Assembly (NCBI RefSeq): GCF_030813715.1
Contig: NZ_JAUSUZ010000001.1
Location: 2,852,001 to 2,916,000 of the forward strand
DNA length: 64,000 nucleotides
Reading direction: 5' to 3'
Source of the DNA: Catenuloplanes indicus
GTDB lineage: Bacteria > Actinomycetota > Actinomycetes > Mycobacteriales > Micromonosporaceae
Positions 7,562 through 22,705 of the stretch are shown here, piece after piece (within the stretch, counting starts at the first letter, position 1; each line of letters starts with the position of its first letter). Both the position numbers and the translations under genes were made by a program. The notes beneath the pieces are model-generated. The model was not told the origin of the DNA. It ran no database searches and saw nothing but the letters and a program-made list of their open reading frames with translations.

Positions 7562-8374
7562 TCAGGTGTTTTGCTGCGCCAGCGCGGTCGCCCGGTCACG
7601 GGCCGCACCAAGAGCATCCAGCACCGCGGCGCGCAGCCCATGGCGTTCCAGCTCGGCCAGCGCGGCGGCCGTGGTGCCGCCCGGCGACGTAACCGCCTCG
7701 CGCAGCGTGACCGGATGCTCGCCGGACTCCCGCAGCATGGTGGCGGAGCCGAGCGCGGTCTGCACGGCCAGCTCGCGTGCGGTCGCCCGAGGCAGGCCGA
7801 GCAGCACACCGGCCTCGATCATCGCCTCGACGAAGAGGTAGACGTACGCGGGACCGGAGCCGGAGACGGCGGTGACCGCGTCCTGCTGCTTCTCCGGCAC
7901 CCGGAGCACGGCGCCGAGCGGCCGGAACAGCTCCTCGGCCAGCGCCACGTGCGCGTCGGCCGCATGGACACCCGGCGAGATCGCCGAGATAGCGGCACCG
8001 GCCAGCGCGGGGGTGTTGGTCATGACCCGGACCACCGGCGTGCCCTCGGGCAGTCGACGCGCGAAGAACGCGGTGGTCAGACCGGCGCAGAGGGACACGA
8101 CGAGCGTGCCGGGCCGCACCGCGCCGGCGATCTCGGCCAGCAGCGCGGCCGCGTCCTGCGGTTTCACGCCGATGACCAGGACCTCGGCCTCGGCCGCGGC
8201 GGTGGCGTTGTCCACCACCCGGACGCCGTGCCGGGCGCGCAGTTCATCGGCGCGTTCCGGGCGGCGCGCGGTGGCCAGCGCACGATCGGCCGGGTGGCCG
8301 CCGCGCAGCAGGCCGGCCAGCACCAGCCCGCCCATCGTCCCGGTGCCCAGCACCGCGATGGTCCGCTCGCTCAT
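7562..8374 (-). CDS. proC: Pyrroline-5-carboxylate reductase
   Basis: 270 residues, normal for the family. It reduces 1-pyrroline-5-carboxylate to proline with NAD(P)H in the cytoplasm. The N-terminal Rossmann fold begins IAVLGTGTMGGLVLAGL, and VIGVKPQDAAALL and VSLCAGLTT follow. The C-terminal dimerisation domain carries the family signature DAVTAVSGSGPAYVYLFVEA and REAVTSPGGTTAAAL. The ATG was chosen because the dinucleotide-binding strand starts six residues later. It is read in the same direction as pfkA upstream but separated from it by a strong terminator, so it probably has its own promoter. Confidence 0.96.
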   Translation of the reverse strand: MSERTIAVLGTGTMGGLVLAGLLRGGHPADRALATARRPERADELRARHGVRVVDNATAAAEAEVLVIGVKPQDAAALLAEIAGAVRPGTLVVSLCAGLTTAFFARRLPEGTPVVRVMTNTPALAGAAISAISPGVHAADAHVALAEELFRPLGAVLRVPEKQQDAVTAVSGSGPAYVYLFVEAMIEAGVLLGLPRATARELAVQTALGSATMLRESGEHPVTLREAVTSPGGTTAAALAELERHGLRAAVLDALGAARDRATALAQQNT

Positions 8375-8394
8375 CGGTCGCTCCCCGCAGACGG

Positions 8395-8429
8395 GCGTCC
8401 CCCGTGCCGGCGGACGGCACGGGGGACGC
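8395..8429 (-). terminator. Terminator after pfkA
   Basis: A perfect 14-bp stem (8395-8408 with 8416-8429, arm GCGTCCCCCGTGCC) with a 7-base loop, 16 bases past the pfkA stop. Confidence 0.8.
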
Positions 8430-8445
8430 CTGAACAGATGGACAA

Positions 8446-9474
8446 TCAGCTGCCGAAGAAGACCTCGGCCTCGGTGTAGCGCTCCAGCGGGACGGTCTTG
8501 AGCTCGCCGGTGCCCTCGATCAGCGGGATGCGCACGATGTCGGTGCCGCGCAGCGCGACCATCTTGCCGAAGTCGCCCTCGTTGACCGCGTCGATCGCGG
8601 AGAGGCCGAAGCGGGTGGAGAGCACCCGGTCGAACGCGGTCGGCGTGCCACCGCGCTGGATGTGACCGAGCACGACCGTGCGGGCCTCCTTGCCGGTCTT
8701 CGCCTCCAGCTGCTCGGCGAGCCACTGGCCGATGCCGCCGAGACGGACATGGCCGAAGCTGTCCAGCTCCTGGTTCTGCAGCACCATCTGGCCCGCGAGC
8801 GGCTGGGCGCCCTCGGCGACGACCACGATCGGCGCGTACTCGTGCTGGAAGCGCTTCTCCACGTACGCCGCTACCTGGTCGACGTCGAACTCGCGCTCCG
8901 GCAGCAGGATGACGTTGGCGCCACCGGCGAGACCGGCGTGCAGCGCGATCCAGCCCGCGTGGCGGCCCATGACCTCGACGATCAGCGTGCGGTGGTGCGA
9001 CTCGGCGGTGGTGTGCAGCCGGTCGATCGCCTCCATCGCGATGTTGACCGCGGTGTCGAAGCCGAACGTGTAGTCCGTGCCGTTCAGGTCGTTGTCGATC
9101 GTCTTCGGCACGCCGACGACGTTCACGCCCAGGTCGGCCAGCTTGGTGGCGACGCCGAGCGTGTCCTCGCCGCCGATCGCGATCAGCGCGTCCACGCCGA
9201 GGTTGGCCAGGTTCTCCTTGACCCGCTCGACACCGTTCTCGATCTTGAACAGGTTGGTCCGGGACGAGCCGAGGATGGTGCCGCCGCGCGGCAGGATGCC
9301 ACGGACCTGCGGGATGCCGAGCGGCATGGTCAGACCCTCGAGCGGGCCCTTCCAGCCGTCACGGAAACCCACGAACTCGTGGCCGTAGACCGTGACGCCC
9401 TTACGGACCACGCCGCGGATGACCGCGTTCAGGCCGGGGCAGTCGCCGCCACCGGTGAGCACGCCGATACGCAT
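8446..9474 (-). CDS. pfkA: ATP- or PPi-type 6-phosphofructokinase
   Basis: 342 residues, like actinomycete PfkA. It phosphorylates fructose 6-phosphate to the 1,6-bisphosphate in glycolysis. Visible motifs are GVLTGGGDCPGLNAVIRG at the start, GGTILGSSRTN, IGGEDTLGVA, PKTIDNDLNGTDYTFGFDTA (catalytic Asp region) and EVMGRHAGWIA. The GGED motif, where ATP-dependent E. coli PfkA has GGDGS, is also found in other actinomycete enzymes. Phosphoryl donor choice cannot be fixed by eye. The ATG is preceded by GGAGGGACGAG. It is followed by its own terminator. Confidence 0.95.
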   Translation of the reverse strand: MRIGVLTGGGDCPGLNAVIRGVVRKGVTVYGHEFVGFRDGWKGPLEGLTMPLGIPQVRGILPRGGTILGSSRTNLFKIENGVERVKENLANLGVDALIAIGGEDTLGVATKLADLGVNVVGVPKTIDNDLNGTDYTFGFDTAVNIAMEAIDRLHTTAESHHRTLIVEVMGRHAGWIALHAGLAGGANVILLPEREFDVDQVAAYVEKRFQHEYAPIVVVAEGAQPLAGQMVLQNQELDSFGHVRLGGIGQWLAEQLEAKTGKEARTVVLGHIQRGGTPTAFDRVLSTRFGLSAIDAVNEGDFGKMVALRGTDIVRIPLIEGTGELKTVPLERYTEAEVFFGS

Positions 9475-9644
9475 ATTGGCTCGTCCCTCCACACAACGTG
9501 CAAGCTTTTCGGCACCGAACCCCGGAAGCCACGTTGCCGGCCGGGGGCGGGCCGTCATCGCAGACTGTAGTCGGCGTCACTTCGCACCCCCGCAGCAGAC
9601 CCCGGCTACACCCCGATGTCACGCGCGCTACGCCTTTGCTTCAG

Positions 9645-9750: not shown

Positions 9751-10248
9751 TCCGGGCTTGGTCATCGCTCTCCACCGCGCAAGGTTGTGGCGCGCGTCGA
9801 CCAGGGCGTCGTGGCGGTCGGCCTCGGCGTCGGGCAGCGGTGGGCGGCCCCTGTCGTCCCACAGCTGGCGCAGGTCCTTGGTGAAGCGCGGGATCGCTCG
9901 CGGCAGCGCCGGCATCGCGCCCCAGAGCTGGGCCAGGACCACGTGGTCGTACGCGGCGAACCAGGCCCACAGGTCGAGCTGCTCGCCGGTGCGGCCGCGG
10001 ATCGGCTGGACCAGGAACTCGTAGAGCTCGTCGCGGATCCGTTCGCGTGACTTCCAGGCGGGGTCACCCGGAGAGGGGAGGCGGTCGAGGACGTTGCGGC
10101 GCACCCACGGCGTGGCCCGCGTACCGTCGAATTCCGTGGAGATCGCGTAGAACTCCCGGCCGTTCTCGTCCACCACGCCGATCGAGACCAGGTCGATCGT
10201 TCGACCATCCTCGATGAATTCACAGTCATAGAAGTAGCGGTATGTCAT
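9745..10248 (-). CDS. Rv2179c-like 3'-5' exoribonuclease
   Basis: 167 residues. It matches the small DnaQ-fold exoribonuclease family of Mycobacterium Rv2179c, which trims 3' overhangs of RNA. The acidic active-site motifs are visible: YDCEFIEDG (first Asp and Glu), the middle Asp in WFAAYDHVVL, and RHDALVDARHNL (His and last Asp). The start MTYRYFYDCEF places the first catalytic Asp at residue 8, as in the family. The stop codon falls inside one of two identical 47-bp repeats, so the last few codons have been shaped by the repeat. It is divergent from the ligase gene at 10424. Confidence 0.88.
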   Translation of the reverse strand: MTYRYFYDCEFIEDGRTIDLVSIGVVDENGREFYAISTEFDGTRATPWVRRNVLDRLPSPGDPAWKSRERIRDELYEFLVQPIRGRTGEQLDLWAWFAAYDHVVLAQLWGAMPALPRAIPRFTKDLRQLWDDRGRPPLPDAEADRHDALVDARHNLARWRAMTKPGT

Positions 10249-10423
10249 CGCGCACCATCCTCACCCATGCTGATGGTGGCGCCCCATCCAGGGGGTGCGT
10301 GCGGCGACCCATGATCGGGTAAAGAGGGCCAGCGGGTCGCGCACCTTAACCGGCCCGAAACACAGTCGGCATGTGCCCTGGGAACAGTTCCCGAACAGTC
10401 GGCACCACGAGGTGGGAACGAGA

Positions 10424-13009
10424 ATGGTCGATACTCCGCAAGACGCCACGACGCTTGCCCTGCCGGACCCGAAACCGGGTTCGAACGCCCTCACGCTCGG
10501 GGTCGAGGAGGAGTTCCACGTCATCGACCTGGAGACGCGGGAGTTGGTGCCACGTGCCGGTGAACTGCTGGACCGGCTGCCGTCCGACTCCTTCACGGCC
10601 GAGCTGCAGCGCTCCGTGGTGGAGACGAACACCGCGGTCACCGGTACGCTCGACGACCTCCGCGAGGAGATCGTCCGGTTGCGCCGGCTCGCGGTCGGCG
10701 TGGCGGACGCGGCCGGCCTGGGCATCGCCGCGGCCGGCACCGTACCGCTGCTGAACGGCGACGACCTGGACATCACGCCCACCGCGCGTTTCCGGCACAT
10801 GCTCGACGAGTACCAGATGCTCGCCCGCGAGCAACTGATCTGCGGCGCCCAGGTGCACGTCGGCATCGACGACCGCGACCTGGCCGTGGCCGTGGCGCAG
10901 CGGGTCCAGCCGGTGCTGCCGTCGCTGCTCGCGCTCTCCGCCAGCTCGCCGTACTGGATGGGTCAGGACAGCGGGTACGCGAGCGTGCGCTCGCTGGTCT
11001 GGCAGCGCTGGCCCACGGCCGGCGACCCCGGGCAGGTGACCAGCGCGGCCGACCACGACGCGCTGGTCCGCGAGCTGATCGCGACCGAGACGATCAGCGA
11101 CCCGGCGATGATCTACTTCGACGTACGGCCGTCCGCGCACGTGCCCACGGTCGAGCTGCGGATCACCGACGCCAGCTCGGACGTGGAGACCGTGGTGCTG
11201 CTGGCCGGCCTGTTCCGGGCCGTGGTCCGGCAGGAGATCGACCGGGTGCGCGCGGGTACGCCGTACACGCCGGCCCGGCCGCCGGTGCTGCGCGCCGCGC
11301 TCTGGCGGGCCGCGCGCTCCGGCCTGGAGGGCGACCTGATCGACCTGCCGCGCGGACCGAAGCCGGTGCCCGCGGCCGAGGCGCTACGCCGGCTGACCGC
11401 CGGTCTGCGGCCCTACCTGGAGGAGACCGGCGACTGGGACCAGGTCACCCATCTGCTGGAGCGCGCGCTGCGGCAGAGCAGCGCGGCGGCCCGGCAGCGG
11501 CGCGCGTTCACCCGTCGCGGACGGCTGGCGGACGTGGTCGATCTGGTCCTGGCGGAGACGCGCGGCGGCGAGCCGGTACGCGAGGCCAGCGGCCCGGGCG
11601 CCCGGCTGGCCGACTACGCCAGCGCGGCCGACGAGATGTTCCCGGACACCGGGCCGCCCGCGGCGTACCGCGAGATCGTCGGCGCGCTGGACCGGCTCGG
11701 CGCGCAGGAGCTGCGGCAGCGCGAACAGCTGCGGGACGAGGAGCAGCGGGCGCGCGGCGTGACGTTCAGCGTGGCCGGTGAGGCCAGCACCCGGCTGTTC
11801 CCGTTCGACCTGGTGCCACGGCTGGTCGCCGCGGACGAGTGGGCGACGCTGCGCGCCGGGCTCACCCAGCGCGCCCGCGCGCTGGACGCGTTCCTGCGCG
11901 ACGTCTACGACGAGCGGTGGGTGGTCAAGGACGGCATCATCCCGGCCTGGGTGGTGGACGGCTCCCCCGGCCTGAAGCCGACCGGCGCGCTGATGCGGCG
12001 GCAGTCCACCCGCGTCCAGGTGGCCGGCATGGACCTGGTCAAGGACCGGCAGACCGGCTGGCACGTGCTGGAGGACAACCTGCGGGTGCCGTCCGGCATC
12101 GGGTACGCGATCCAGAACCGCCGCCTGACCCTCTCCGTGCTGCCGGAGCTGCCGCTGCCGGACAACCTGCTGCCGGTCGACGACACACCGGCCATGCTGC
12201 GCCGCGCGCTGGTCGCGGCCGCGCCACCGGCCGCGGGCAACGACCCGTCGATCGTGGTGCTGAGCCGGGGCCCGGAGGATTCGGCCTGGTTCGAGCACCG
12301 GCTGCTGGCGCTGGAGATGGGCGTGCCCGCCGCGGTCAGCACGGACCTCCAGGTCGAGGACGGCGCGGTGTTCCTGGTCCAGCACGGCCGGCGGCAGCGG
12401 GTGGACGTGATCTACCTGCGGATGGACGAGGACGAGCTGTTGCACGCGCCCGGCGCGGACGGCATGCCGCTGGGCTGGCCGATCCTCTCCGCGGTGCACA
12501 CCGGCCGGGTGGCGGTGGCGAACGCGCTGGGCAACGGCGTCGGCGACGACAAGGCGATCTACGCATACGTGCCGAAGTTCATCGAGTATTACCTGAGCGA
12601 GAAGCCGCTGCTCGCGGACGTGCCCACCTACCTGGGCGGCGTGCCGGAGCAGTGCGAGGAGATCCTCGGCCGGCTCGGCGAGCTGGTGGTCAAGCCGGTC
12701 GACGGATACGGCGGCGACCGCGTCGTGATCGGTCCGTACGCGTCGGACAGCGAGCTCACCGCGCTGCGCCGGCAGATCACGGCCGCGCCGCACCGGTGGA
12801 TCGCGCAGGAGGTGGTCTCGCTCTCCACGCACCCGGTCTTCGACGGTCACCGGCTCACACCGCGCCACGTGGACCTGCGCGCGTTCGTCTTCCTCGGCGA
12901 CGGCGCCGAGGTGGGCTCGGCCGCGCTGACCCGGGTGGCGCCGGAGGACAGCCTGATCGTCAACTCGTCCCGCGGCGGCGGCGCGAAGGACACCTGGCTG
13001 CTCGGATAA
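10424..13009 (+). CDS. GCS2-like carboxylate-amine ligase fused to circularly permuted ATP-grasp
   Basis: 861 residues with two ATP-dependent ligase domains. Residues about 22-370 are a glutamate-cysteine-ligase-type carboxylate-amine ligase of the YbdK group (LGVEEEFHVID, CGAQVHVGIDD, VPTVELRITD). Residues about 385-861 are a circularly permuted ATP-grasp of the DUF404/DUF407 type: FPFDLVPRLVAADEW, EDNLRVPSG (550-558), PVDGYGGDRVVIGP after Lys757, and SSRGGGAKDTWLL at the end. Each domain is normally a separate protein; such ATP-grasps usually neighbour alpha-E and transglutaminase genes, absent here. Both activities form amide bonds, so the protein may build a short peptide in two steps. 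The ATG has GAGGTGGGA before it; an open frame continues upstream but lacks family sequence. Substrates cannot be told. It heads a block with an amidotransferase and a peptidase. Confidence 0.9.
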   Translation: MVDTPQDATTLALPDPKPGSNALTLGVEEEFHVIDLETRELVPRAGELLDRLPSDSFTAELQRSVVETNTAVTGTLDDLREEIVRLRRLAVGVADAAGLGIAAAGTVPLLNGDDLDITPTARFRHMLDEYQMLAREQLICGAQVHVGIDDRDLAVAVAQRVQPVLPSLLALSASSPYWMGQDSGYASVRSLVWQRWPTAGDPGQVTSAADHDALVRELIATETISDPAMIYFDVRPSAHVPTVELRITDASSDVETVVLLAGLFRAVVRQEIDRVRAGTPYTPARPPVLRAALWRAARSGLEGDLIDLPRGPKPVPAAEALRRLTAGLRPYLEETGDWDQVTHLLERALRQSSAAARQRRAFTRRGRLADVVDLVLAETRGGEPVREASGPGARLADYASAADEMFPDTGPPAAYREIVGALDRLGAQELRQREQLRDEEQRARGVTFSVAGEASTRLFPFDLVPRLVAADEWATLRAGLTQRARALDAFLRDVYDERWVVKDGIIPAWVVDGSPGLKPTGALMRRQSTRVQVAGMDLVKDRQTGWHVLEDNLRVPSGIGYAIQNRRLTLSVLPELPLPDNLLPVDDTPAMLRRALVAAAPPAAGNDPSIVVLSRGPEDSAWFEHRLLALEMGVPAAVSTDLQVEDGAVFLVQHGRRQRVDVIYLRMDEDELLHAPGADGMPLGWPILSAVHTGRVAVANALGNGVGDDKAIYAYVPKFIEYYLSEKPLLADVPTYLGGVPEQCEEILGRLGELVVKPVDGYGGDRVVIGPYASDSELTALRRQITAAPHRWIAQEVVSLSTHPVFDGHRLTPRHVDLRAFVFLGDGAEVGSAALTRVAPEDSLIVNSSRGGGAKDTWLLG

Positions 13010-13119
13010 CCATCGAGCCGGGGAGGAACAGCTCACACACCGGACTGCCGGAGCCCGGTCACGGGTAGACGAACCGTTCTGAACAGCGACAACGCTGCGC
13101 TGCGTGTTCGACCATTTAC

Positions 13120-13186
13120 GGCACCGTCATATTCCGGTAATGCGGTCTACCCAGTCTGAACAGGTCGGCCGCACCATGACGGTGCC
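13120..13186 (+). promoter_or_regulatory. Inverted repeat in the amidotransferase leader
   Basis: GGCACCGTCAT (13120-13130) pairs with ATGACGGTGCC (13176-13186), 24 bases before the ATG at 13211. The ribosome-binding site GGGAGG lies at 13199-13204, outside the stem. The 201-base gap from the ligase gene leaves room for a promoter, so the repeat may be a leader structure or operator. Confidence 0.4.
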
Positions 13187-13210
13187 CATCGCTCGCATGG
13201 GAGGTCTGTC

Positions 13211-14983
13211 ATGTGCGGAATAGGTGGCGAGTTCAGATACGACGGCACCGCGCCGGACCCCGAGGCGGTCCGGCGCATGCTGCCGTGCCTGGAGTCCCGG
13301 GGCCCGGACGGGGCGGGCCTCTGGGCCGAGGGCCCCGCCGCGCTCGGCCACCGCCGCCTCGCCATCATCGACCTGTCCGACGAGGGCGCGCAGCCGATGG
13401 TCGACGACGAGCTCGGCCTGGCCATGGTGTTCAACGGCTGCGTCTACAACTACCGGCAGCTGCGCACCGAGCTGCAGCAGGCCGGCTACACGTTCCGCTC
13501 CACCTCGGACACCGAGGTGATCATGAAGGCGTACCACCGGTGGGGTGTGCGCTGCGTCGAGCGCTTCTACGGCATGTTCGCGTTCGCGATCGTCGAGCGG
13601 GAGACCGGCACGCTGGTGCTCGGCCGCGACCGGCTCGGCATCAAGCCGCTCTACTACGCGGAGACCGCGCGCGGCCTGCGGTTCGCCTCCACGCTTCCGG
13701 CGCTGCTCGCGGCCGGTGGCGTGGACACCGAGCTGGACCCGGTGGCGCTGCACCACTACATGACGTTCCACTCGGTGGTGCCGGCGCCGATGACCATCCT
13801 GCGCGGCGTCCGGAAGCTGCCGCCGGCCACGGTCCGGGTGATCACCTCGGACGGGCGGCGCACGGACACGGTCTACTGGGAGCCGGTGCACGCCCGGACC
13901 TCGATCATGACGCCGGACGAGTGGCAGGACGCGCTGATGTCACGCCTGCGCACCGCGGTCGAGCGCCGGATGGTCGCGGACGTGCCGGTCGGCGTGCTGC
14001 TCTCCGGCGGCCTCGACTCCAGCCTGATCGTCGCGCTGCTGGCCGAGCAGGGCCAGACCGGGCTGACCACGTTCAGCATCGGCTTCGAATCGGCCGGCGG
14101 CGAGAGCGGCGACGAGTTCTTCTACTCCGACCTGATGGCACGCCGGTTCGGCACCACGCACCACAAGATCAAGATAGGTGCGGACCGGTTCCAGCCCGCG
14201 GTCCACGACACCATCGCGGCCATGAGCGAGCCGATGGTCAGCCACGACTGCGTCGCGTTCTTCCTGCTCAGCCAGGAGGTCGCGAAGCACATCAAGGTGG
14301 TCCAGTCCGGGCAGGGCGCGGACGAGATCCTGGCCGGCTACGACTGGTACCCGCCGCTCGCCGGCGTGCCCCGGGGGCAGGCCGCCGAGGCGTACGCGCG
14401 GGTGTTCTTCGACCGGCGGCACACCGAGCTGATGGAACAGCTGTCCCCCGAATGGGCGCTGGGTGCGGACGCCAGCCTGGAGTTCGTACGGTCGCACTTC
14501 GCCCGGCCCGGCGCGGAGACCGCGCTGGACGCGGCGTTGCGCCAGGACAGCACGGTCATGCTGGTGGACGATCCGGTCAAACGGGTCGACAACATGACTA
14601 TGGCGTGGGGGCTGGAGGCCCGCGTACCCTTCCTGGATCACGAGGTGGTCGAACTCGCGGCGGCCATGCCGGGAGAGCTCAAGCTGGCCGACGGCGGCAA
14701 GGGCATCCTGAAGGCCGCTGCCCGGGGCGTGGTCCCGGACGAGGTGATCGACCGGCCGAAGGGTTATTTCCCGGTGCCGGCGATCCGCCACCTCTCGGGC
14801 CCCCTGCTCGACGACGTGCGGGACGCCCTCTCCGCGCCGGCCGCGCGCCAGCGGGGACTCTTCCGCAAGGAATACGTGACCGAGCTGCTCGACGCGCCGA
14901 ACGAGACGCGCACGACGCTCGGCTCGAACGCGCTGTGGCAACTGGGATTGCTGGAGCTATGGCTCCAGCGGATCGGGGTGTAG
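13211..14983 (+). CDS. Asparagine-synthetase-type amidotransferase (NAGGN amidotransferase-like)
   Basis: 590 residues. The N-terminal glutaminase starts with catalytic Cys2 (MCGIGGEF), followed by RGPDGAGLW and the Gln-binding SDTEV. The C-terminal synthetase has the ATP pyrophosphatase loop LLSGGLDSSLIVALL, then QGADEILAGYDWY and EARVPFLDHEVVEL. It should use glutamine nitrogen and ATP to amidate a carboxylate. Where ordinary AsnB has NGEIYNY, this has NGCVYNY. Overall it looks more like the amidotransferase of N-acetylglutaminylglutamine amide synthesis (TIGR03104-type 'trio' proteins) than housekeeping AsnB. The canonical partner, a GNAT/ATP-grasp synthase, is replaced here by the fused ligase upstream. 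Its stop codon touches the start of the peptidase gene, so the two are probably translationally coupled. Confidence 0.88.
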   Translation: MCGIGGEFRYDGTAPDPEAVRRMLPCLESRGPDGAGLWAEGPAALGHRRLAIIDLSDEGAQPMVDDELGLAMVFNGCVYNYRQLRTELQQAGYTFRSTSDTEVIMKAYHRWGVRCVERFYGMFAFAIVERETGTLVLGRDRLGIKPLYYAETARGLRFASTLPALLAAGGVDTELDPVALHHYMTFHSVVPAPMTILRGVRKLPPATVRVITSDGRRTDTVYWEPVHARTSIMTPDEWQDALMSRLRTAVERRMVADVPVGVLLSGGLDSSLIVALLAEQGQTGLTTFSIGFESAGGESGDEFFYSDLMARRFGTTHHKIKIGADRFQPAVHDTIAAMSEPMVSHDCVAFFLLSQEVAKHIKVVQSGQGADEILAGYDWYPPLAGVPRGQAAEAYARVFFDRRHTELMEQLSPEWALGADASLEFVRSHFARPGAETALDAALRQDSTVMLVDDPVKRVDNMTMAWGLEARVPFLDHEVVELAAAMPGELKLADGGKGILKAAARGVVPDEVIDRPKGYFPVPAIRHLSGPLLDDVRDALSAPAARQRGLFRKEYVTELLDAPNETRTTLGSNALWQLGLLELWLQRIGV

Positions 14984-16861
14984 ATGACCGCTGAGCTCGG
15001 GGGCGCGACCACGCTGCCCGGACCCGTCGTTCCCGCATTGGCAGTGCCGCCGCCCGGCGGTCCCGCGCCGATGCCGCCCGGCTGGTCCCCGACGACCTGT
15101 GACAGCTGGTCACCGAGCCCGGCGCCGGACGGCGGCCGGGTGGTGTTCGTCTCCGATCTCAGCGGTGCGCCGCGGGTCTGGGTGCGGGACACCCGGACCG
15201 TGGGCGCGGGCCCGACACTCCTGCCCACCGGCGACGAACCCGTCGCCCGGGTCACCTGGTCGCCGGACGGCGCGTGGATCGTCTACGTGTCGAACCCGGG
15301 CGGGGCGCCGCGCGCGGAAGCGTGGGCGATCCGCCCGGACGGCAGTGACAACCACCAGATCGCCGGATTCGACGGTACGACCGTGCTGCTCGGCGACTGG
15401 GTCCCCGGCTCGTCGCGGCTGGCCGTCACGGAGACCGGCGCCACCGCGTGCGCGATGGTGCTGGACGTGGCCACCGGCGCGCGGCACGAGCTGTGCACCG
15501 GCGAGATGCTCTACCTGCTGGACGTGACCGCGGACGGGTCCCGGGCGCTGCTGCGCCGTGGGCCGCGCAGTGCCCGCTGGCTGGAGGTGCTGGACGTCGC
15601 GACCGGCAAGGCCGAGCCGCTGCCGCTGACCGGCGGCAACACCGACCGCGGGTGGTTCGCGGACGGCGGCGCGACCGTGCTGGCCCGTACCGACGCGAAC
15701 TCCGATCTGGCGACGCTGGTCGCGGTGACCGGCGGCGAGGTGGTCGAGCTGGCCCGGCGCCCGGACGCGGAACTGGAGGACTTCGCGGTCACCCAGGACC
15801 GGAGCGCGGTCGCGCTCCTCTGGAACCGGTACGGCGGCGTGAGCGAGCTGGCACTGCTGGACCTGGCCACCCGTGAGCAGCGGGCGCTGCCGTCTCCGGC
15901 CGGCGACGTCTTCGAGGGCTGCGCGTTCGCCGGGGACGGCCGGCTGCTGGCGCTGGTGGTGCAGAGCGCGATCCAGCCGCGGACGATCTGGCTGCTCGAC
16001 CCGGCGCTCGGCGAGGGCCACGCGCTCGGCGACGACCCGACCGCACCGGCCACGCCGGTGCCGGGCGAGCCGAGCTGGCCGGTGGTGATCGCGCCGCAGC
16101 TGTGCGACCTGCGCTCCGGCGACGGGCTGGCGATCTCCGGGTGGCTCTACCGGCCGGACGGCGACCACGACGGGCCGTGGCCGACCGTGATCAGCCTGCA
16201 CGGCGGGCCGGAGTGGCAGTGGCGGCCCGGCCACAACCCGCTGTTCCAGGCGCTGCTGGCGCGCGGGCTGGCCGTGTTCGCGCCGAACGTGCGCGGGTCG
16301 ACCGGGTTCGGGCGCAGCTTCGTGGACGCGGACAACCGGGCCGGCCGGTACGGCGCGATCGCGGACGTCGCGGCCTGTGTGGAGTACCTGGTGAGCAGCG
16401 GGATCGCGGACCCGGACCGGATCGGGTGCATCGGCCGGTCGTACGGCGGCTATCTCACGCTGGCCGCGCTGACCACGTTCCCGGAGCTGTTCGCGGCCGG
16501 GGTGAGCGAGTGCGGGATGTCCGACTTCGCGTCGTTCTACGAGCGCACCGAGCCGTGGATCGCGGCCGCCGCGGTCAGCAAGTACGGGCACCCGGAGCAC
16601 GACCGGGAACTGCTGCGCGACCTGTCGCCGCTGCACCGGATGGACCGGCTGCGCGCGCCGCTGCTGCTGGTGCACGGCGCGAACGACACGAACGTCCCGG
16701 TGTACGAGTCGGAGCAGGTGCTGGAGGCGCTGCGCGGGCGCGACGACGTGCCGCACGACTACCTGCTGCTGCCCGGTGAGGGCCACGACTTCCTGGCCCG
16801 CACGTCCCGGTGGACCGCGATCGACGCGACGGCCCAGTGGCTGTCGACGCACCTCTCATGA
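14984..16861 (+). CDS. S9C-type prolyl oligopeptidase family peptidase
   Basis: 625 residues, cytoplasmic (no signal peptide). Residues about 25-360 form a beta-propeller of TolB-like repeats (SPAPDGGRVVFVSDLSG, WSPDGAWIVYVSNPG). The alpha/beta hydrolase follows: LHGGPEWQWRPGHNPLFQ, nucleophile Ser in IGRSYGGYLTLAAL, Asp in HGANDTNVP, and His in GEGHDFLA. Such enzymes cleave small peptides. The start codon is immediately adjacent to the amidotransferase stop. Peptidases accompany known peptide-amide (NAGGN) gene sets, where they are thought to recycle the product, so this one probably acts on the compound made by the two genes upstream. The last six bases overlap the convergent phosphotransferase gene. 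Confidence 0.92.
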   Translation: MTAELGGATTLPGPVVPALAVPPPGGPAPMPPGWSPTTCDSWSPSPAPDGGRVVFVSDLSGAPRVWVRDTRTVGAGPTLLPTGDEPVARVTWSPDGAWIVYVSNPGGAPRAEAWAIRPDGSDNHQIAGFDGTTVLLGDWVPGSSRLAVTETGATACAMVLDVATGARHELCTGEMLYLLDVTADGSRALLRRGPRSARWLEVLDVATGKAEPLPLTGGNTDRGWFADGGATVLARTDANSDLATLVAVTGGEVVELARRPDAELEDFAVTQDRSAVALLWNRYGGVSELALLDLATREQRALPSPAGDVFEGCAFAGDGRLLALVVQSAIQPRTIWLLDPALGEGHALGDDPTAPATPVPGEPSWPVVIAPQLCDLRSGDGLAISGWLYRPDGDHDGPWPTVISLHGGPEWQWRPGHNPLFQALLARGLAVFAPNVRGSTGFGRSFVDADNRAGRYGAIADVAACVEYLVSSGIADPDRIGCIGRSYGGYLTLAALTTFPELFAAGVSECGMSDFASFYERTEPWIAAAAVSKYGHPEHDRELLRDLSPLHRMDRLRAPLLLVHGANDTNVPVYESEQVLEALRGRDDVPHDYLLLPGEGHDFLARTSRWTAIDATAQWLSTHLS

Positions 16862-17671
16862 GGCGCGGATGACCGGGCGCCGGGCGGCCAGCACGGCCCG
16901 GCGCAGCTCGATCAGCACCGGCAGCGCGATCTCGATCTCGTCGCGGTGCACCGGGCCGGCTCGCGCGTACGCATCGATCAGCTCGGCCCTGGCCTCCGGG
17001 CCGTCCGCGGAGAGGACCGCGGCGGCCAGGTCGTAGACGAGCGGGCCGGTGCCGGCCGGGCCCCAACCGAGCACGCCGGTCCGGCCGGTCGCCGGGTCGA
17101 TCAGGAACAGCGGCGCGGACGGGTCCCGGTGCAGCACGCCGTAGGTCAGCCGGTCGGTGACACACAGACGGGTGACGGCCGCGACCGCGCGGGCCACCGC
17201 GTCCCGGGTTGCCGGTGGCAGGTGCGGCGCGCCCGGGTCCAGCCCGTGCCAGCCGGCCGGGTGGTGTTGCAGGCCGGGGTGGTCGAAGCCGTCCAGCGCC
17301 CGGTGCGCGGCGCCGAGCAGGCCGCCCCACCAGCGAGCGTCGACCGGATCGGCCGGGTGCAGCGGCCGGCCCTCGGCGCGGCGGGCCAACGCCAGCACGG
17401 TGATCGCGTTCTCGCTGGTCAGCCCGCCGTGCACGGTGCGCTCGGCCGGCCCGGTGCCGATCCCCCACTCGGCCAGCCGGTCCAGTGCGCCCAGACCGGC
17501 CTCCAGCGCGGCGCGGGCGTGCGCCGGTGCGCGGGTCAGCGTGAACCGTTCTCCCCCGGCGGTCACCTCCCAGCGGCTCGCGTGCGCACCGCGGCAGATC
17601 GCGCGCATGTCGTCGACCGGGTGGTGCCACGCACGGCGTACCGTCGTGATAAGGACTTTCGGTTTTGGCAT
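16856..17671 (-). CDS. Degenerate aminoglycoside-phosphotransferase-fold protein
   Basis: 271 residues from ATG 17671; a GTG at 17710 would add 13 residues. The C-terminal half resembles the APH/choline kinase fold: GVLHRDPSAPLFLID aligns with the catalytic loop and GVLGWGPAGTGPLVYDLAAAV with the metal-binding segment. Typical members have HGDLHPGN and IDW. Here the catalytic Asp is kept (HRD), but the Asn is gone and the metal-binding Asp is Gly202. The N-terminal ATP-binding region is also weakly conserved. It may be a pseudokinase or a small-molecule binder. It is convergent with the peptidase gene (6-bp overlap) and could belong to the same function, but that is a guess. Confidence 0.6.
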   Translation of the reverse strand: MPKPKVLITTVRRAWHHPVDDMRAICRGAHASRWEVTAGGERFTLTRAPAHARAALEAGLGALDRLAEWGIGTGPAERTVHGGLTSENAITVLALARRAEGRPLHPADPVDARWWGGLLGAAHRALDGFDHPGLQHHPAGWHGLDPGAPHLPPATRDAVARAVAAVTRLCVTDRLTYGVLHRDPSAPLFLIDPATGRTGVLGWGPAGTGPLVYDLAAAVLSADGPEARAELIDAYARAGPVHRDEIEIALPVLIELRRAVLAARRPVIRAS

Positions 17672-17986
17672 TGCCCGCCGATCGTCCGAGGCTGCATTGG
17701 AGAATGGCACTGCGCGATTGTGTCGGCGACTGTCCTGGTTTCGACCTGAATCGCCGGGAGGTTCCCACTAAGGGGTCGTTACACACGGCGACGACGAATG
17801 CGTATACCATCCGGCGTCGACTGTGACAGCACAGTCACGAACACGGGCACAGGGGTGTACAGAGCGCGACACACAGGCCATGATCTGGGTGGCAGCGCAG
17901 CGGAAGCGTTGACCGTTTATGTCACGTCGGTCCGGCCGAGCGCGGGGTGGGCGCGACGCCGGTGCCGACCGGGGAGGGGTTGGACC
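17672..17986 (+). promoter_or_regulatory. Upstream region of the Crp gene with a palindrome
   Basis: No gene is seen in these 315 bases. A perfect palindrome, GACTGTG-ACAG-CACAGTC (17819-17836), lies about 150 bases before the Crp start. It shares TGTGA with Crp sites but has different spacing from the TGTGA-N6-TCACA consensus. Autoregulation is possible. Confidence 0.35.
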
Positions 17987-18679
17987 GTGGAGGTTCGCCT
18001 GCCGGATCCCGGCGATGCGCTCACGGGCGTCGAGATGTTCGCCGGCCTGGAGCAGGAGGTACGACAGCGGGTGATCGCCGCGGCGGTCCCACGCACGTAC
18101 CGTAAGGGTCAGATTCTGTTCGTGGAGAACGACCCCGGAGAGTCACTCATAGTGCTCAAGCGGGGCGCCGTCGCGGTCTTCCGGACCGCACCGACCGGCG
18201 AGCGGGCCGTGCTGACCGTGGTGCGGCCGCCCGACGTGCTCGGCGAGCTGTCGCTGCTGGACGGCTCGGGGCGTTCCGCCTCCGCGGAGGCGATCGAGGA
18301 CTGCACCGCACTGGCGCTGTCCCGGGCCGCGTTCATGGAGCTGGTGCATTCCAATCCACGAATTCTGGACGCGGTGATGCGGGCGCTGGGGGCGTTGATC
18401 CGCCGGCTCACCGAGCAGAACGCGGATCACGTCTTCCTCGACCTGCCCGGGCGGGTGGCGAAGACGCTGGTCCGGCTGGCCGGTGAGAGCCAGGCACCGA
18501 TGATCACGATCGAGCTCAACCAGAGCCAGCTGGCCGAGATGGCCGGCGGGTCGCGGCAGAGCGTGAACCAGGCGATCGGGTCCTTCGCCAGCCGGGGGTG
18601 GCTGCGCACCGAGGGGCGCCGGATCGTGGTGACCGACGTGGCCGCGCTGCGCCGCCGCGCCGGGATGGTCGACAAGTAA
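17987..18679 (+). CDS. Crp/Fnr-family transcription regulator
   Basis: 230 residues, a dimeric DNA-binding regulator. The GTG start was chosen over an in-frame upstream ATG because GGGGAGGGG lies 7 bases before it and the protein then has the usual length. Residues about 10-125 form a cyclic-nucleotide-binding domain whose phosphate cassette GELSLLDGSGRSASAEA keeps the Gly-Glu and Arg expected for cAMP binding. The central dimer helix follows (LIRRLTEQNADHVFLDLPGRVAKTL). A winged helix-turn-helix is at about 165-215 (QSQLAEMAGGSRQSVNQAI). There is no Cys cluster, so it is not an oxygen-sensing Fnr. An adenylate-cyclase-type gene lies 0.7 kb downstream. A strong bidirectional terminator follows the stop. 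Confidence 0.93.
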   Translation: MEVRLPDPGDALTGVEMFAGLEQEVRQRVIAAAVPRTYRKGQILFVENDPGESLIVLKRGAVAVFRTAPTGERAVLTVVRPPDVLGELSLLDGSGRSASAEAIEDCTALALSRAAFMELVHSNPRILDAVMRALGALIRRLTEQNADHVFLDLPGRVAKTLVRLAGESQAPMITIELNQSQLAEMAGGSRQSVNQAIGSFASRGWLRTEGRRIVVTDVAALRRRAGMVDK

Positions 18680-19345: not shown

Positions 19346-22300
19346 GTGCACTGCGGGCGGGCGCACCAGTCCGGCGTGCTCTACTGCACCGGCTGCGGGC
19401 GGCCGCTGACCGACGCGCAGCCGGTCGTGCAGGAGGAGCGACGCCGGATCAGCGTGCTGTTCATCGACCTGGTCGGGTTCACGCCGTACACCGAGCGGAT
19501 CGACCCGGAACAGGTCCGGATCATGCAGAACGACTACTTCAGCTCCGTGCGGCGGATCGTCCGGCAGTACGGCGGCGTGGTGGAGAAGTACATCGGCGAC
19601 GCGGTCATGGTGCTGTTCGGCGCGCCGGTCGCCACCGAGGCCGACCCGCTGCGCAGCGTGCGCGCCGGGCTGGAGCTGCAGCGCGTGCTGCCGAAACAGG
19701 GCCGCGCCCAGCAGGCCGGCCTGCGCTTCCGGGTCGGCATCACCACCGGCGAGGCGCTGGTCAACCTGACCGCCGCGCACGACGGCGGCCAGGCGATCGT
19801 GGCCGGTGACCTGGTCAACACCGCGTCCCGGCTACAGGCCGCCGCGCCGGTCGACGGCGTGCTCACCGACGACGAGACCTACCAGGCCACCAAGAACGAG
19901 ATCGAGTACGTGTCGCAGCCGACCACCACGCTGCGCGGCCGCTCCCGGCCGAGTGACGTGTGGCTGGCCGTGGCGCCGCGCCCGCCCCGCCCGGCCGGTG
20001 CGGAACGCGAGCAGACCCCGATGGTCGACCGAGAGCACGAGCTGGCGCTGCTGGTCAACGCGCTGCGGCGGACCGTGAGCAGCCGTACCCCGCAGCTGGT
20101 GACGATTTTCGGCTCGGCCGGGATCGGAAAGTCCCGGCTGCTGCGCGAACTGGCCCGGCACGCCGGGCGGATCACCGGCGAGCAGGTGTGCTGGCGGGTC
20201 GGTCAGTGCCGGCCGTTCGGCGAGAACGTCACGTACGCCGCGCTCGCCGACATCGTCAAGGCGCAGGCCGGCATCCTGGACACCGACGACGAGGCGACCG
20301 CGCGGCGGCGGCTCGGCGACGCGCTGGCCGGCCTGACCAGCACGGAGGACGCGCAGCGGCTCGCCGACGCACTCGGCCCGCTGCTCGGCCTGCCCGGCAC
20401 CCGGCTCACGCCCGGCGAGTCCGAGTCCGCGTGGCGGCGGTTCATCGTCCGGTTCAGCTCCGGGCAGGCGACCGTGCTGGTCTTCGAGGACCTGCACTGG
20501 GCGGACGCGCCGATGCTCCGGTTCATCGAGTCGCTCGGCGCGGCCACCCGGCGCATCCCGCTGCTGATCGTCTGCACCGCCCGTCCCGAGCTGCGCGAAC
20601 GGTACCCGCAATGGACCAGCGCGATGACCGGCACCACGTCGATCTCGCTGCCGCCGATGCGGGAGAGCGACATCAGCACGATGTACTCGCTGATGTTCGG
20701 CAAGGCCGCGTTCACGCCCGACCTGCTCGCGCCGCTGGTCGAGCTGGCCGACGGCAACCCGCTCTACGCACACGAGTACGTGCGGATGCTGGTCGACCAC
20801 GGCAGCCTCCGGCCGACCGGCGGCCCCGGCTGGCGGCTCGACGCGCACGAGGCACCGCCGATGCCGGACAACGTGCGCGCCGTCATCGCGAACCGGCTCG
20901 ACCTCCTCGACCCCGCGGACCGGGCCGTGCTCCAGGCCGCGGCCGTGGTCGGCATGCAGTTCTGGCCCGGCGCGGTCGCCACCGCGGTCGGCCAGCCGGT
21001 CGAGGAGGTCGAGCGCACGCTGCTCCGGCTCGAACAGCGCGACCTGGTCGAGGAGCGCGGCAACTCGAGCATGGCCGGGCAGCTGGAGTACGCGTTCCGG
21101 CACGTGCTGGTCCGCGACGTCTGCTACCAGCGGCTGCCCCGCGCCGAACGGGTCGCCCGGCACGAGCGCACCGCGGACTGGCTGGAACGCGTCTCGGCCG
21201 GCCGGCAGACCGACCTGGCCGAGGTGCTGGCCAACCACCGGTGGGCCGCGCACGAGATCGCCCGCACGCTCGGGCTCGACCCGGCGCCGTACGCCGCACC
21301 CGCGCGGGAGGCGCTGCTGCGGGCCGCGCGCCGGGCGTACTCACTGCACGCGCTGGACGCCGCGCAGGAACTGGTCCGGCGTGCCAGCTCGCTGCTGGCC
21401 GCGCCGGACCCGGCCGTCGAGCTGTTCGCGTCCGAGCTCGCGTTCTTCCGCGACGCGGACGCGTTCCTGGACGGCGGGGGCGAAGAACGGCTCACCGCCC
21501 TCGCACACGTGCTGCAGGACTCCGGCCGGCTGGACGGCGCCGGACGCGCCTGGACGCTGCTCGGCAGCGCCGCGCTGTCCCGCGCCGACCGGCCCGCCTG
21601 CCTGGCGTACCTCGCCCGGGCGATCGCGCTGTACGAGAAGCTGCCGCCGAGCGAGGAGGCCGCGCTCGCGCTGCTCGAGTACGCCCGCGTTCACATGATC
21701 GACTACGAGACCGCGACCGCGATCGCCGCGGCCGAGACCGCGGCGGAGGCGGCGAACCGGCTCGGGCTGACCGAGGTCCGGGCCAACGCGCTGATCACCT
21801 CCGCCGTGGCGCAGTACCTGCAGGGCGAGCAGGAGGGCCTGCGCCGGCTCCAGGAGATCACCCAGCACTGCCGTGAACAGCAGCTGACCAGCCTCCGGCG
21901 GGCGATCCACAACCTGGGCTTCGTCATGCAGGAGGAGGGCGACATCACCGGCTCGCAGAAGCTGATCGACGAGTTCACGCCGCTCGAGGCGGCCAGCGGG
22001 CTCACGCTCGCCACGAACTTCGTCGACGGCGCGGCCCGGGCGTACTTCGCCGGCGACTGGGCCGCGATGCTGCGCGCCGCGGACGACCACATGCGGCTGC
22101 CGACGATCGAGTGGGACCTGCACTGGGTCGCCCAGACCGGGTGGATGGGCGTGCTCCGCGAGGACTCCCCGCCGGTCGAGGACCCGGTGGAGGAGGCGGT
22201 CCGCACCGCGCGGCGCAGTGGCTTCCACAAGGTGCTGCGCTCCACGCTGGCGCACGCGGCGCTGTGCCGGGCCGTCCAGGGCCGCACGGCGGAGGCCGGC

Positions 22301-22705
22301 GCACTGCTGGACGAGCTGGCGGCGGACTACGGTGACTCGCGGACGCTGGCGTTCGCCGAGTGGGTGTTCGCGGCGGCGTACGCGGCGTGGCTGCTCGGCC
22401 CGGACCGTTCCCGGCAGATCCGCACACTGCTGGAACGCTCACCACGCCGGACCCCGTGGGTGGACGCCGCCATCCTGACCTGCACCGGCACGTCCGCGGC
22501 CCACCGGGCGGCACTGACCGTCCTCGACGGCATCGGCGCGGTCAGCGACCAGGCCCTGTCCCGGGCCGCCCTGGTCCGCGCGCTCCGGGCGGAGGGCGAC
22601 GCGGACGGGGCCGCGGAGGCAATGGTCGCATTGACCGCTTTCAGCGATCGCAACGGCGCCCCCGGCCTGCTGCGGCTCGCCTCACCACCGTCCTCCGCCA
22701 CGTGA
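19346..22705 (+). CDS. Class III adenylate cyclase with AAA-type ATPase and helical-repeat C-terminus
   Basis: 1119 residues from the first usable start (GTG). Residues about 3-18 are the second half of a double zinc ribbon (CGRAHQ...YCTGCG); its first half is encoded upstream in frame. Residues about 35-195 are a class III cyclase: FIDLVGFT and GDAVMVLFG give the two metal aspartates, Lys in VEKYIGD and Asp in AGDLVNTASR specify adenine, and Asn and Arg of VNTASR stabilise the transition state. All appear present, so it is probably active. An ATPase follows with Walker A FGSAGIGKSR and Walker B VLVFEDLHWAD. The rest, from about residue 600, is alpha-helical repeat typical of TPR sensors. Similar cyclase-ATPase proteins exist in mycobacteria (Rv0386/Rv1358 type, without HTH here). 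Input signal is unknown. A Crp gene is close by. Confidence 0.9.
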   Translation: MHCGRAHQSGVLYCTGCGRPLTDAQPVVQEERRRISVLFIDLVGFTPYTERIDPEQVRIMQNDYFSSVRRIVRQYGGVVEKYIGDAVMVLFGAPVATEADPLRSVRAGLELQRVLPKQGRAQQAGLRFRVGITTGEALVNLTAAHDGGQAIVAGDLVNTASRLQAAAPVDGVLTDDETYQATKNEIEYVSQPTTTLRGRSRPSDVWLAVAPRPPRPAGAEREQTPMVDREHELALLVNALRRTVSSRTPQLVTIFGSAGIGKSRLLRELARHAGRITGEQVCWRVGQCRPFGENVTYAALADIVKAQAGILDTDDEATARRRLGDALAGLTSTEDAQRLADALGPLLGLPGTRLTPGESESAWRRFIVRFSSGQATVLVFEDLHWADAPMLRFIESLGAATRRIPLLIVCTARPELRERYPQWTSAMTGTTSISLPPMRESDISTMYSLMFGKAAFTPDLLAPLVELADGNPLYAHEYVRMLVDHGSLRPTGGPGWRLDAHEAPPMPDNVRAVIANRLDLLDPADRAVLQAAAVVGMQFWPGAVATAVGQPVEEVERTLLRLEQRDLVEERGNSSMAGQLEYAFRHVLVRDVCYQRLPRAERVARHERTADWLERVSAGRQTDLAEVLANHRWAAHEIARTLGLDPAPYAAPAREALLRAARRAYSLHALDAAQELVRRASSLLAAPDPAVELFASELAFFRDADAFLDGGGEERLTALAHVLQDSGRLDGAGRAWTLLGSAALSRADRPACLAYLARAIALYEKLPPSEEAALALLEYARVHMIDYETATAIAAAETAAEAANRLGLTEVRANALITSAVAQYLQGEQEGLRRLQEITQHCREQQLTSLRRAIHNLGFVMQEEGDITGSQKLIDEFTPLEAASGLTLATNFVDGAARAYFAGDWAAMLRAADDHMRLPTIEWDLHWVAQTGWMGVLREDSPPVEDPVEEAVRTARRSGFHKVLRSTLAHAALCRAVQGRTAEAGALLDELAADYGDSRTLAFAEWVFAAAYAAWLLGPDRSRQIRTLLERSPRRTPWVDAAILTCTGTSAAHRAALTVLDGIGAVSDQALSRAALVRALRAEGDADGAAEAMVALTAFSDRNGAPGLLRLASPPSSAT

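Follow-up and report, generated by a model that had tools for sequence, protein, structure and literature searches.

Three adjacent genes on the plus strand of a 64,000-nucleotide stretch of the Catenuloplanes indicus genome (the window) encode a fused ligase, an amidotransferase and a peptidase (Table 1). The fusion gene starts with an ATG at 10424, closely preceded by the purine-rich run GAGGTGGG, and its open frame reaches back to a GTG at 10295. The gap to the amidotransferase gene, asnO, is 201 bases; no base lies between the asnO stop and the ATG of the peptidase gene, as an earlier note on this DNA had observed. We found no sigma-70 promoter or terminator pattern within positions 10000–17900 of the window.

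Table 1 Genes and domains of the cassette, in window coordinates.
Feature	Position	Strand	Details and basis
Fused ligase, GCS2 (YbdK-type) plus circularly permuted ATP-grasp type 2	10424..13009	+	861 aa; open reading frame and domain profiles; kept fused in 80 named loci
GCS2 carboxylate-amine ligase domain	10496..11326 (residues 25-301)	+	PF04107 187 bits; TIGR02050 268 bits; YbdK 1r8g/1tt4 by sequence and fold
Circularly permuted ATP-grasp domain	11816..12940 (residues 465-839)	+	CP_ATPgrasp_2 PF14403 403 bits; fold match to 3n6x (37% identity), with glutathione synthetases next
AsnO-type glutamine amidotransferase	13211..14983	+	590 aa, starts Met-Cys (Cys2); SGGLDS 265-270, GADE 369-372; TIGR03104; tree
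S9-family serine peptidase	14984..16861	+	625 aa; PF00326 157 bits; catalytic residues by pattern

The first protein had been credited with two amide-ligase domains, and the domain profiles bear this out. Its GCS2 domain scores above the cut-off of the YbdK family model TIGR02050 (268 against 176 bits). Residues E28, E30, H145, R235, E244 and R246, which make up the GCS2 core and are common to YbdK in the alignment, are invariant in 29 of 29 fusions, which suggests that the domain is active. The motifs EDNLRVPSG (residues 550–558) and GGGAKDTW (851–858) are present as claimed and are invariant or nearly so across the 29 aligned fusions, the exception being residue 854, which is A or S. We modelled the fusion using AlphaFold2 (pLDDT 81, pTM 0.60), and the best fold matches returned by Foldseek were YbdK (1r8g/1tt4) and the circularly permuted (CP) ATP-grasp protein 3n6x, with TM-scores by target of 0.83–0.87, followed by eukaryotic glutathione synthetases. 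The GCS2 half is like the YbdK family in subfamily score and fold, but differs from it in being joined to a CP-ATP-grasp domain. In a tree, it groups with asnO-linked standalone GCS2 proteins of f15, apart from sampled paralogues; this tree does not include the GCS2 of locus L164, which the window GCS2 query did not recover.

In glutathione synthesis, by the bifunctional GshF or the GshA–GshB pair, a gamma-glutamyl-ligase-type domain is followed by an ATP-grasp ligase. The combination of GCS2 and a glutathione-synthetase-like fold resembles this two-step logic, the CP-ATP-grasp half matching the eukaryotic synthetases in fold only. The fusion differs from GshF in its GCS family (GCS2/YbdK), its permuted ATP-grasp and its linked amidotransferase. 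According to PMC4360819, actinomycetes rely on mycothiol.

The amidotransferase had been likened to the enzyme of NAGGN synthesis, and its best model is indeed the NAGGN amidotransferase family TIGR03104 (953.4 bits, cut-off 570.1), of which it is a full-length member with Asn_synthase (PF00733, 307 bits) and GATase (PF13522) domains. It scores under the cut-off of the AsnB model PRK09431 (286 against 499 bits) and clears that of TIGR01536, the general model for asparagine synthases (435 bits, cut-off 267). This last result would fit an AsnO that is simply the cell's asparagine synthetase, beside a fusion making gamma-glutamyl-cysteine or an unrelated amide, as would the census of the window's genome, where PF00733 has just two further matches: C1:122790, which is partial with an internal TGA, and C1:1575202, for which the best model is the macrolactam cyclase family NF033561 (245 bits, under the cut-off of 300). 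An ordinary AsnB was not seen in this genome, so the asparagine explanation, though weakened, is not closed. We nevertheless regard it as very improbable: TIGR03104 far outscores TIGR01536, matches in 14 of 14 control genomes fall under the TIGR03104 cut-off, three fusion genomes are without such an AsnO, and asnO remains next to ligases at the loci examined.

In the peptidase, pattern searches located the catalytic triad at Ser486 (in GRSYGG), Asp568 (HGANDTNV) and His601 (GHDF), and acylamino-acid-releasing enzymes are among its best PDB sequence matches. Inspection by eye revealed no signal peptide; the peptidase is presumably cytosolic.

Linkage was counted at the best 80 of 447 fusion relatives, all at loci in named genomes. 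At 77 of the 80, asnO lies downstream of the fusion on the same strand, with a gap of 8 to 2607 bases (median 62); an S9 gene is present at 74, and both partners at 72, always on the same strand. Fusion, asnO and S9 gene form one conserved unit, as the earlier note had proposed, and its co-occurrence check did not find the fusion to be rarely near asnO. Exceptions are loci L095, L104 and L124, where asnO is absent near the fusion and the genomes hold no TIGR03104 match at E ≤ 1e-100; L095 and L104 belong to MAGs, and the L104 sequence ends 1 kb past the fusion. Genomes G481 and G507 likewise carry a fusion without asnO. Because of these cases, either amidation is not obligatory or the asnO-less fusions are remnants. 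No further gene family travels with the trio: among 41 selected loci the next family reaches just 10, counting open reading frames of at least 90 aa, so that a shorter precursor peptide would escape. This pattern counts against a cassette that makes a specialised peptide metabolite, or modifies a small peptide, instead of an osmolyte, as does the fact that the AsnO family is known from an osmolyte pathway. The variety of asnO partners described below speaks for such a role, and Iyer et al. 2009 is said to have placed CP-ATP-grasp and GCS2 families in other peptide-ligation operons too; on balance we consider it quite unlikely.

The cassette shares several features with the NAGGN pathway (asnO–ngg–peptidase; Ngg is TIGR03103), namely an AsnO of the same equivalog family, adjacency of synthase and peptidase genes, and a two-domain synthase with an N-cap domain and a ligase domain. 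It differs in that the synthase is GCS2 plus CP-ATP-grasp, whereas Ngg is GNAT plus RimK-like ATP-grasp; that the peptidase is of the S9 type and not the M42 type found at the Ngg locus L169; and that the order is synthase–asnO–peptidase, compared with asnO–synthase–peptidase at L169. Domain profiles identify the asnO neighbour in the window as the fusion, not Ngg. We found no TIGR03103 match in the window's genome at E ≤ 1e-80 (4 of 23 first-look candidates scored), and at E ≤ 1e-60 none of 49 named genomes with the fusion had one; in other samples the same model does detect Ngg, in 21 genomes out of 296 and in 108 out of 151. The latter 151 are of the genus Micromonospora, in which 24 genomes carry the fusion and 1 carries both synthases, where about 17 would be expected under independence (Fisher p 2e-14, a value that ignores shared ancestry and is not usable as a probability). 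This near-exclusion may reflect one clade, and strict mutual exclusion was dropped, as genome G457 has both.

The two classes of AsnO are nearly the same. The 31 fusion-linked proteins retain 96.1% of the 210 columns that are fixed in 19 Ngg-linked ones, compared with 97.8% in 7 Micromonospora Ngg-linked proteins and 33% in the macrolactam-cyclase-like paralogue; 158 of the 210 are kept by all members of the fusion-linked group, fewer than the 190–201 of the smaller groups, which is a point against the replaced-synthase reading given below, though the fusion-linked group is also the largest. Mean identity between the fusion-linked and Ngg-linked classes is about 64–65%. Merely three columns (119, 525 and 567) separate them at the thresholds used, and a pocket difference was set aside as a clue to the product. 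The earlier description of a new system holds for the synthase, which differs from Ngg, but the nearly unchanged AsnO argues against a wholly separate system.

Across the phylum, asnO was found in 31 of 296 sampled genomes and lies beside Ngg in 21. The other 10 genes, with no Ngg match in the genome, all adjoin a GCS2 and/or a CP-ATP-grasp ligase; the partners of asnO are modular. Some of these systems have GCS2 alone and others CP-ATP-grasp alone; a second ligation is therefore not required in every case. Genomes of f29 carry CP-ATP-grasp, asnO and DUF1028 as separate genes, preceded in two of three by a separate GCS2 gene. Their CP-ATP-grasp is a clade of its own in the tree, and the GCS2 proteins have diverged, the L164 copy scoring 68.8 bits with TIGR02050, under the cut-off; the GCS2 and CP-ATP-grasp pair was probably assembled more than once. 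G457 keeps Ngg, the fusion and a third asnO–GCS2 pair in one genome, and the products of fusion and Ngg may therefore not be interchangeable. Two tree rows that appeared to represent a separate partner class of CP-ATP-grasp plus S9 (L008 and L154) were rejected as partial copies of fusion loci, the window's own and L166, respectively.

Gene content, linkage, domains, conservation and the tree pattern lead us to lean towards a NAGGN-like pathway with its synthase replaced, in which a capped short peptide is made, amidated and recycled. We infer the following order of steps. The fusion would take over the task of Ngg, using two ligase domains instead of an acetyltransferase and an ATP-grasp. Its GCS2 domain would cap the first amino acid, plausibly with a gamma-glutamyl group, as the chemistry of the family implies, and the glutathione-synthetase-like CP-ATP-grasp would join a second amino acid to the alpha-carboxyl of the first. 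AsnO would then amidate the C terminus with glutamine nitrogen, and the S9 peptidase would degrade the peptide once it is no longer needed. The conservation of AsnO suggests that the residue is Gln, and the peptide would most likely act as a compatible solute or a store of nitrogen; the earlier note had suggested an osmolyte or a redox or storage compound, possibly gamma-linked. In a tentative and more specific form, the acetyl cap is swapped for gamma-glutamyl: GCS2 would cap Gln, CP-ATP-grasp would add Gln and AsnO would amidate. The product would be gamma-Glu-Gln-Gln-NH2 ([M+H]+ 403.194) in genomes with the fusion and, where GCS2 alone lies beside asnO, gamma-Glu-Gln-NH2 ([M+H]+ 275.135). 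On this reading, capped glutaminyl amides would form a modular class that includes NAGGN, and the annotation 'N-acetylglutaminylglutamine amidotransferase' would be wrong for many asnO genes.

In five Frankia/Parafrankia loci the gene just downstream of S9 encodes a GNAT, an arrangement that would suit an acetyl cap instead. The fusion could be a non-homologous Ngg in a cassette that makes NAGGN itself, with acetyl-Gln supplied by a GNAT elsewhere, Gln added by one ligase domain, AsnO amidating and GCS2 having another role or none. The near identity of AsnO in fixed columns and the rarity of fusion and Ngg in one genome are consistent with this, and NAGGN is a genuine actinomycete product, isolated from Micromonospora provocatoris (excerpts of PMC8146288). 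The asnO and ngg genes that the same excerpts name, and the presence of Ngg in 108 of the 151 Micromonospora genomes, account more simply for that isolation, which has no bearing on the fusion; we rejected it as proof of the fusion product. Searching 101 sequences including the window with the Frankia GNAT recovered clear relatives in those five loci only, with L053 marginal (E 0.008), although an unrelated GNAT would escape this search. The conserved GCS2 core, which points to an active domain, and the retention of Ngg alongside the fusion in G457 also count against NAGGN as the product, and we judge that outcome unlikely.

The replaced synthase has a partial precedent in Frankia, where excerpts of PMC5563000 describe an asnO–peptidase–'ngg' locus with an 'Ngg' less than 15% identical to known Ngg. 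That cluster is like ours in having asnO, a nearby peptidase and a highly divergent 'Ngg'; it differs in that those excerpts neither describe nor name the fusion. The study partly foresaw the system. Judged from loci in strains other than the paper's, the GNAT located here downstream of S9 is probably what that paper calls 'Ngg'. Full-text searches of an open-access library found no paper on the fusion beside asnO. In the portions consulted, PMC9967187 names Micromonospora among the carriers of NAGGN clusters and gives no details of the genes, PMC5768760 reports Frankia alni FRAAL1888 and FRAAL2171 as PEG-induced, and PMC10252897 tabulates FRAAL4489 as a 'carboxylate-amine ligase'; these locus tags could not be matched to the loci examined and were not used as evidence of cassette expression.

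A curated 'equivalog' model labels all of these amidotransferases NAGGN enzymes, yet 10 of the 31 asnO genes in the phylum sample adjoin other ligases, without Ngg. LC-MS could tell the outcomes apart because NAGGN has an expected [M+H]+ of 316.1615, distinct from the masses of the gamma-glutamyl amides given above. Should the product be NAGGN, one metabolite would be made by two unrelated two-domain synthases. If it differs, Frankia, some Micromonospora, Actinoplanes and others would hold an overlooked class of compatible solutes, and NAGGN calls made from asnO alone would be wrong there.

An earlier note had described three plus-strand genes at 10424-16861 as one unit proposed to make a peptide amide, and ORFs, domain matches and model matches confirmed the set. 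The first product (hereafter the fusion) joins a GCS2-type ligase to a circularly permuted (CP) ATP-grasp, and the S9 peptidase ORF begins on the base that directly follows the AsnO stop. AsnO clears TIGR03104, the NAGGN amidotransferase model, with asparagine synthase models well below; it also exceeds the general asparagine synthase model TIGR01536 (435 bits, cut-off 267) and falls short of the AsnB model (286 bits versus a cut-off of 499). It is the only TIGR03104 protein over the cut-off in this 9.2-Mb genome, in which the NAGGN synthase Ngg had no match at E <= 1e-80 (4 of 23 first-look candidates scored). That AsnO simply makes asparagine is unlikely, and keeps some room because a search for Asn_synthase-domain matches revealed no ordinary AsnB in the genome. 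The two remaining matches of that search were L213 and L214. Modelled with AlphaFold2 (pLDDT 81, pTM 0.60, domain placement uncertain), the fusion resembles the GCS2-type ligase YbdK in one half; its other half matches 3n6x first and eukaryotic glutathione synthetases next. Proteins similar to the S9 peptidase include, among others, acylamino-acid-releasing enzymes, which attack N-blocked peptides. Upstream of the cassette, the reductase-like ORF is probably called too long, because it overlaps the phosphofructokinase ORF.

Features of the cassette, its surroundings and related loci (window positions unless a locus or contig is named)
Feature	Position	Strand	Remark
Pyrroline-5-carboxylate reductase-like ORF	7562-8725	-	upstream of cassette
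Phosphofructokinase ORF	8446-9558	-	upstream of cassette
Fusion: GCS2-type carboxylate-amine ligase + type 2 CP ATP-grasp	10424-13009	+
AsnO-type amidotransferase	13211-14983	+	TIGR03104 953 bits, cut-off 570
S9 peptidase	14984-16861	+
Crp-type regulator	17798-18679	+	downstream of cassette
Long protein, adenylate/guanylate cyclase domain + AAA ATPase domain	19346-22705	+	farther downstream
L213, partial Asn_synthase match	G000:C1:122790-123350		internal TGA
L214, Asn_synthase match	G000:C1:1575202-1576353		macrolactam-cyclase-like
GNAT acetyltransferase gene	L112:15720-16265		just downstream of S9
GNAT acetyltransferase gene	L118:10911-11456		just downstream of S9
DUF1028 protein	L162:7061-7783		after CP-ATP-grasp - asnO
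DUF1028 protein	L164:4999-5787		after CP-ATP-grasp - asnO

A scan of named genomes gave 447 relatives. Among the best 80, the closest is from Catenuloplanes japonicus (89%), which makes a host in or close to Catenuloplanes probable, and the others come from Micromonosporaceae, Frankia/Parafrankia, Pseudonocardia, Sphaerisporangium, Planomonospora, Motilibacter, some MAGs and further taxa. The proposal that the three genes form one unit was borne out in these 80 loci: asnO accompanies the fusion in 77, an S9 gene in 74 (some matches being partial) and both in 72, always on the same strand. Fusion and asnO are separated by a median of 62 bases (range 8 to 2607), and by no more than 300 in 71 of the 77 loci. 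No asnO was found at L095, L104 (where the sequence stops 1 kb past the fusion) or L124, and the genomes of these loci gave no TIGR03104 match at E <= 1e-100 in a search that detected three positive genomes. S9 was not found at L056, L059, L095, L126, L111 or L122, the last two sequences stopping within 0.5 kb of asnO; at L059 the asnO match stops at residue 430, and at L097 asnO is split in two. In 41 hand-picked loci the commonest families were the fusion (41), asnO (36) and S9 (31), followed by one with 10, as counted with a simple ORF caller that overlooks some genes detected by tblastn. The trio is a real, conserved and modular unit.

The partners of asnO are themselves modular. TIGR03104 matched at E <= 1e-150 in 31 of 296 genomes sampled from the phylum; Ngg (TIGR03103) occurs in 21 and adjoins asnO by coordinates in all of them, in pieces or incomplete in G307 and G218. 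The other ten carry the fusion (two, G000 and G115), standalone GCS2 - asnO - S9 (four, class f15), CP-ATP-grasp - asnO - DUF1028 (three, class f29) or divergent GCS2 - asnO (one, G150). Of the three f29 genomes, two also have a separate GCS2 gene ahead of the CP-ATP-grasp gene, at L163 in two reading frames. The different arrangements in which GCS2 and CP-ATP-grasp adjoin asnO suggest that the two chemistries belong to the same pathway. In f29 (L162, L163, L164) the DUF1028 protein, of a family of unknown function (PF06267, shown for L162), takes the peptidase's place.

Within Micromonospora, taken as the genus of G333, M. chokoriensis, TIGR03104 matched in 150 of 151 genomes, Ngg in 108 and the fusion in 24 (as two pieces in G408). 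Fusion and Ngg occur together in G457 only, where about 17 such genomes would be expected under independence, shared ancestry being uncorrected. An asnO sequence adjoins the fusion by coordinates in 22 of the 24, truncated in G334 and in two frames in G400; in G481 and G507 neither asnO nor S9 was found within 6.7-7 kb past the fusion. Signs of cassette decay with the fusion kept (asnO truncated or in two frames, or asnO and/or S9 missing) were seen at L059/L222, L221, L219, L220 and L056. Of 40 asnO loci fetched from the genus, 8 (L190, L191, L193-L195, L197, L198 and L200; about 905 bits with TIGR03104) show a third context, in which asnO and a standalone, more distant GCS2 gene are convergent. 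This context shares genomes with the fusion (G333 and G469 among them) and, in G457, with fusion and Ngg. The one canonical locus viewed downstream, L169, has an M42 peptidase.

In an AsnO tree of 80 hand-picked rows (72 distinct), each partner type matches its own AsnO lineage. Fusion-linked AsnO form a clade (80/92) that joins the standalone-GCS2 - S9 clade weakly (88/61); Ngg-linked AsnO split into two groups, one united with the f29 type (82/95), and the third-context sequences included form their own clade. The fusion and f15 GCS2 domains unite at 100/98, apart from the remaining sampled GCS2, and the fusion CP-ATP-grasp domains form a single clade with standalone paralogues as neighbours and f29 separate. 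A simple history would be an ancestral GCS2 - asnO - S9 unit with later ATP-grasp gain, or loss in one line. Ngg-linked AsnO of non-Micromonospora origin (n=19) share 210 invariant columns, of which the mean proportion kept was 97.8% in Micromonospora Ngg-linked AsnO (n=7; 201 columns in every member), 96.1% in fusion-linked (n=31; 158), 93.2% in standalone-GCS2-type (n=4; 193), 92.2% in convergent-GCS2-class (n=7; 190) and 33% in the macrolactam-cyclase-like paralogue; only three columns cleanly divide fusion-linked from Ngg-linked AsnO. Judged from this conservation across partner types, the peptide end that AsnO amidates is probably similar whatever the context.

In NAGGN synthesis, as PMC8070244 describes it, Ngg acetylates one Gln and joins another to it, with AsnO amidating the end. 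The fusion shares Ngg's plan of an N-cap domain followed by a ligase domain, with GCS2 and a glutathione-synthetase-like CP-ATP-grasp where Ngg has GNAT and a RimK-like ATP-grasp. GCS2 enzymes couple Glu through its gamma-carboxyl to an amine, and glutathione-synthetase relatives of CP-ATP-grasps lengthen gamma-Glu-Cys at its alpha-carboxyl. By analogy, the GCS2 domain would supply a gamma-glutamyl N-cap, the CP-ATP-grasp would extend the capped residue at its alpha-carboxyl and AsnO would amidate the peptide end, making a gamma-glutamyl-capped dipeptide amide the natural prediction from this plan and these chemistries.

It is possible that the product is instead NAGGN itself, a reading favoured by AsnO conservation and by the Frankia GNAT. 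Of ten Frankia/Parafrankia loci, five (L110, L112, L113, L114 and L118) have a GNAT gene after S9; GNAT searches gave no match at L116 and L125, and L108, L111 and L122 stop too soon to tell. A LysR regulator lies upstream of the fusion in Frankia/Parafrankia loci (Pfam shown for L112; family in six loci). TIGR03103 searches of the fusion-bearing named genomes found no Ngg in the Frankia members. A survey, PMC5563000, reports for Casuarina Frankia that asnO clusters with a peptidase and, beyond the peptidase, an 'Ngg' with <15% identity to known Ngg. Most likely the 'Ngg' of that cluster is the GNAT, and the true ligase the upstream fusion. NAGGN and the gamma-glutamyl product predicted here are distinguishable by mass.
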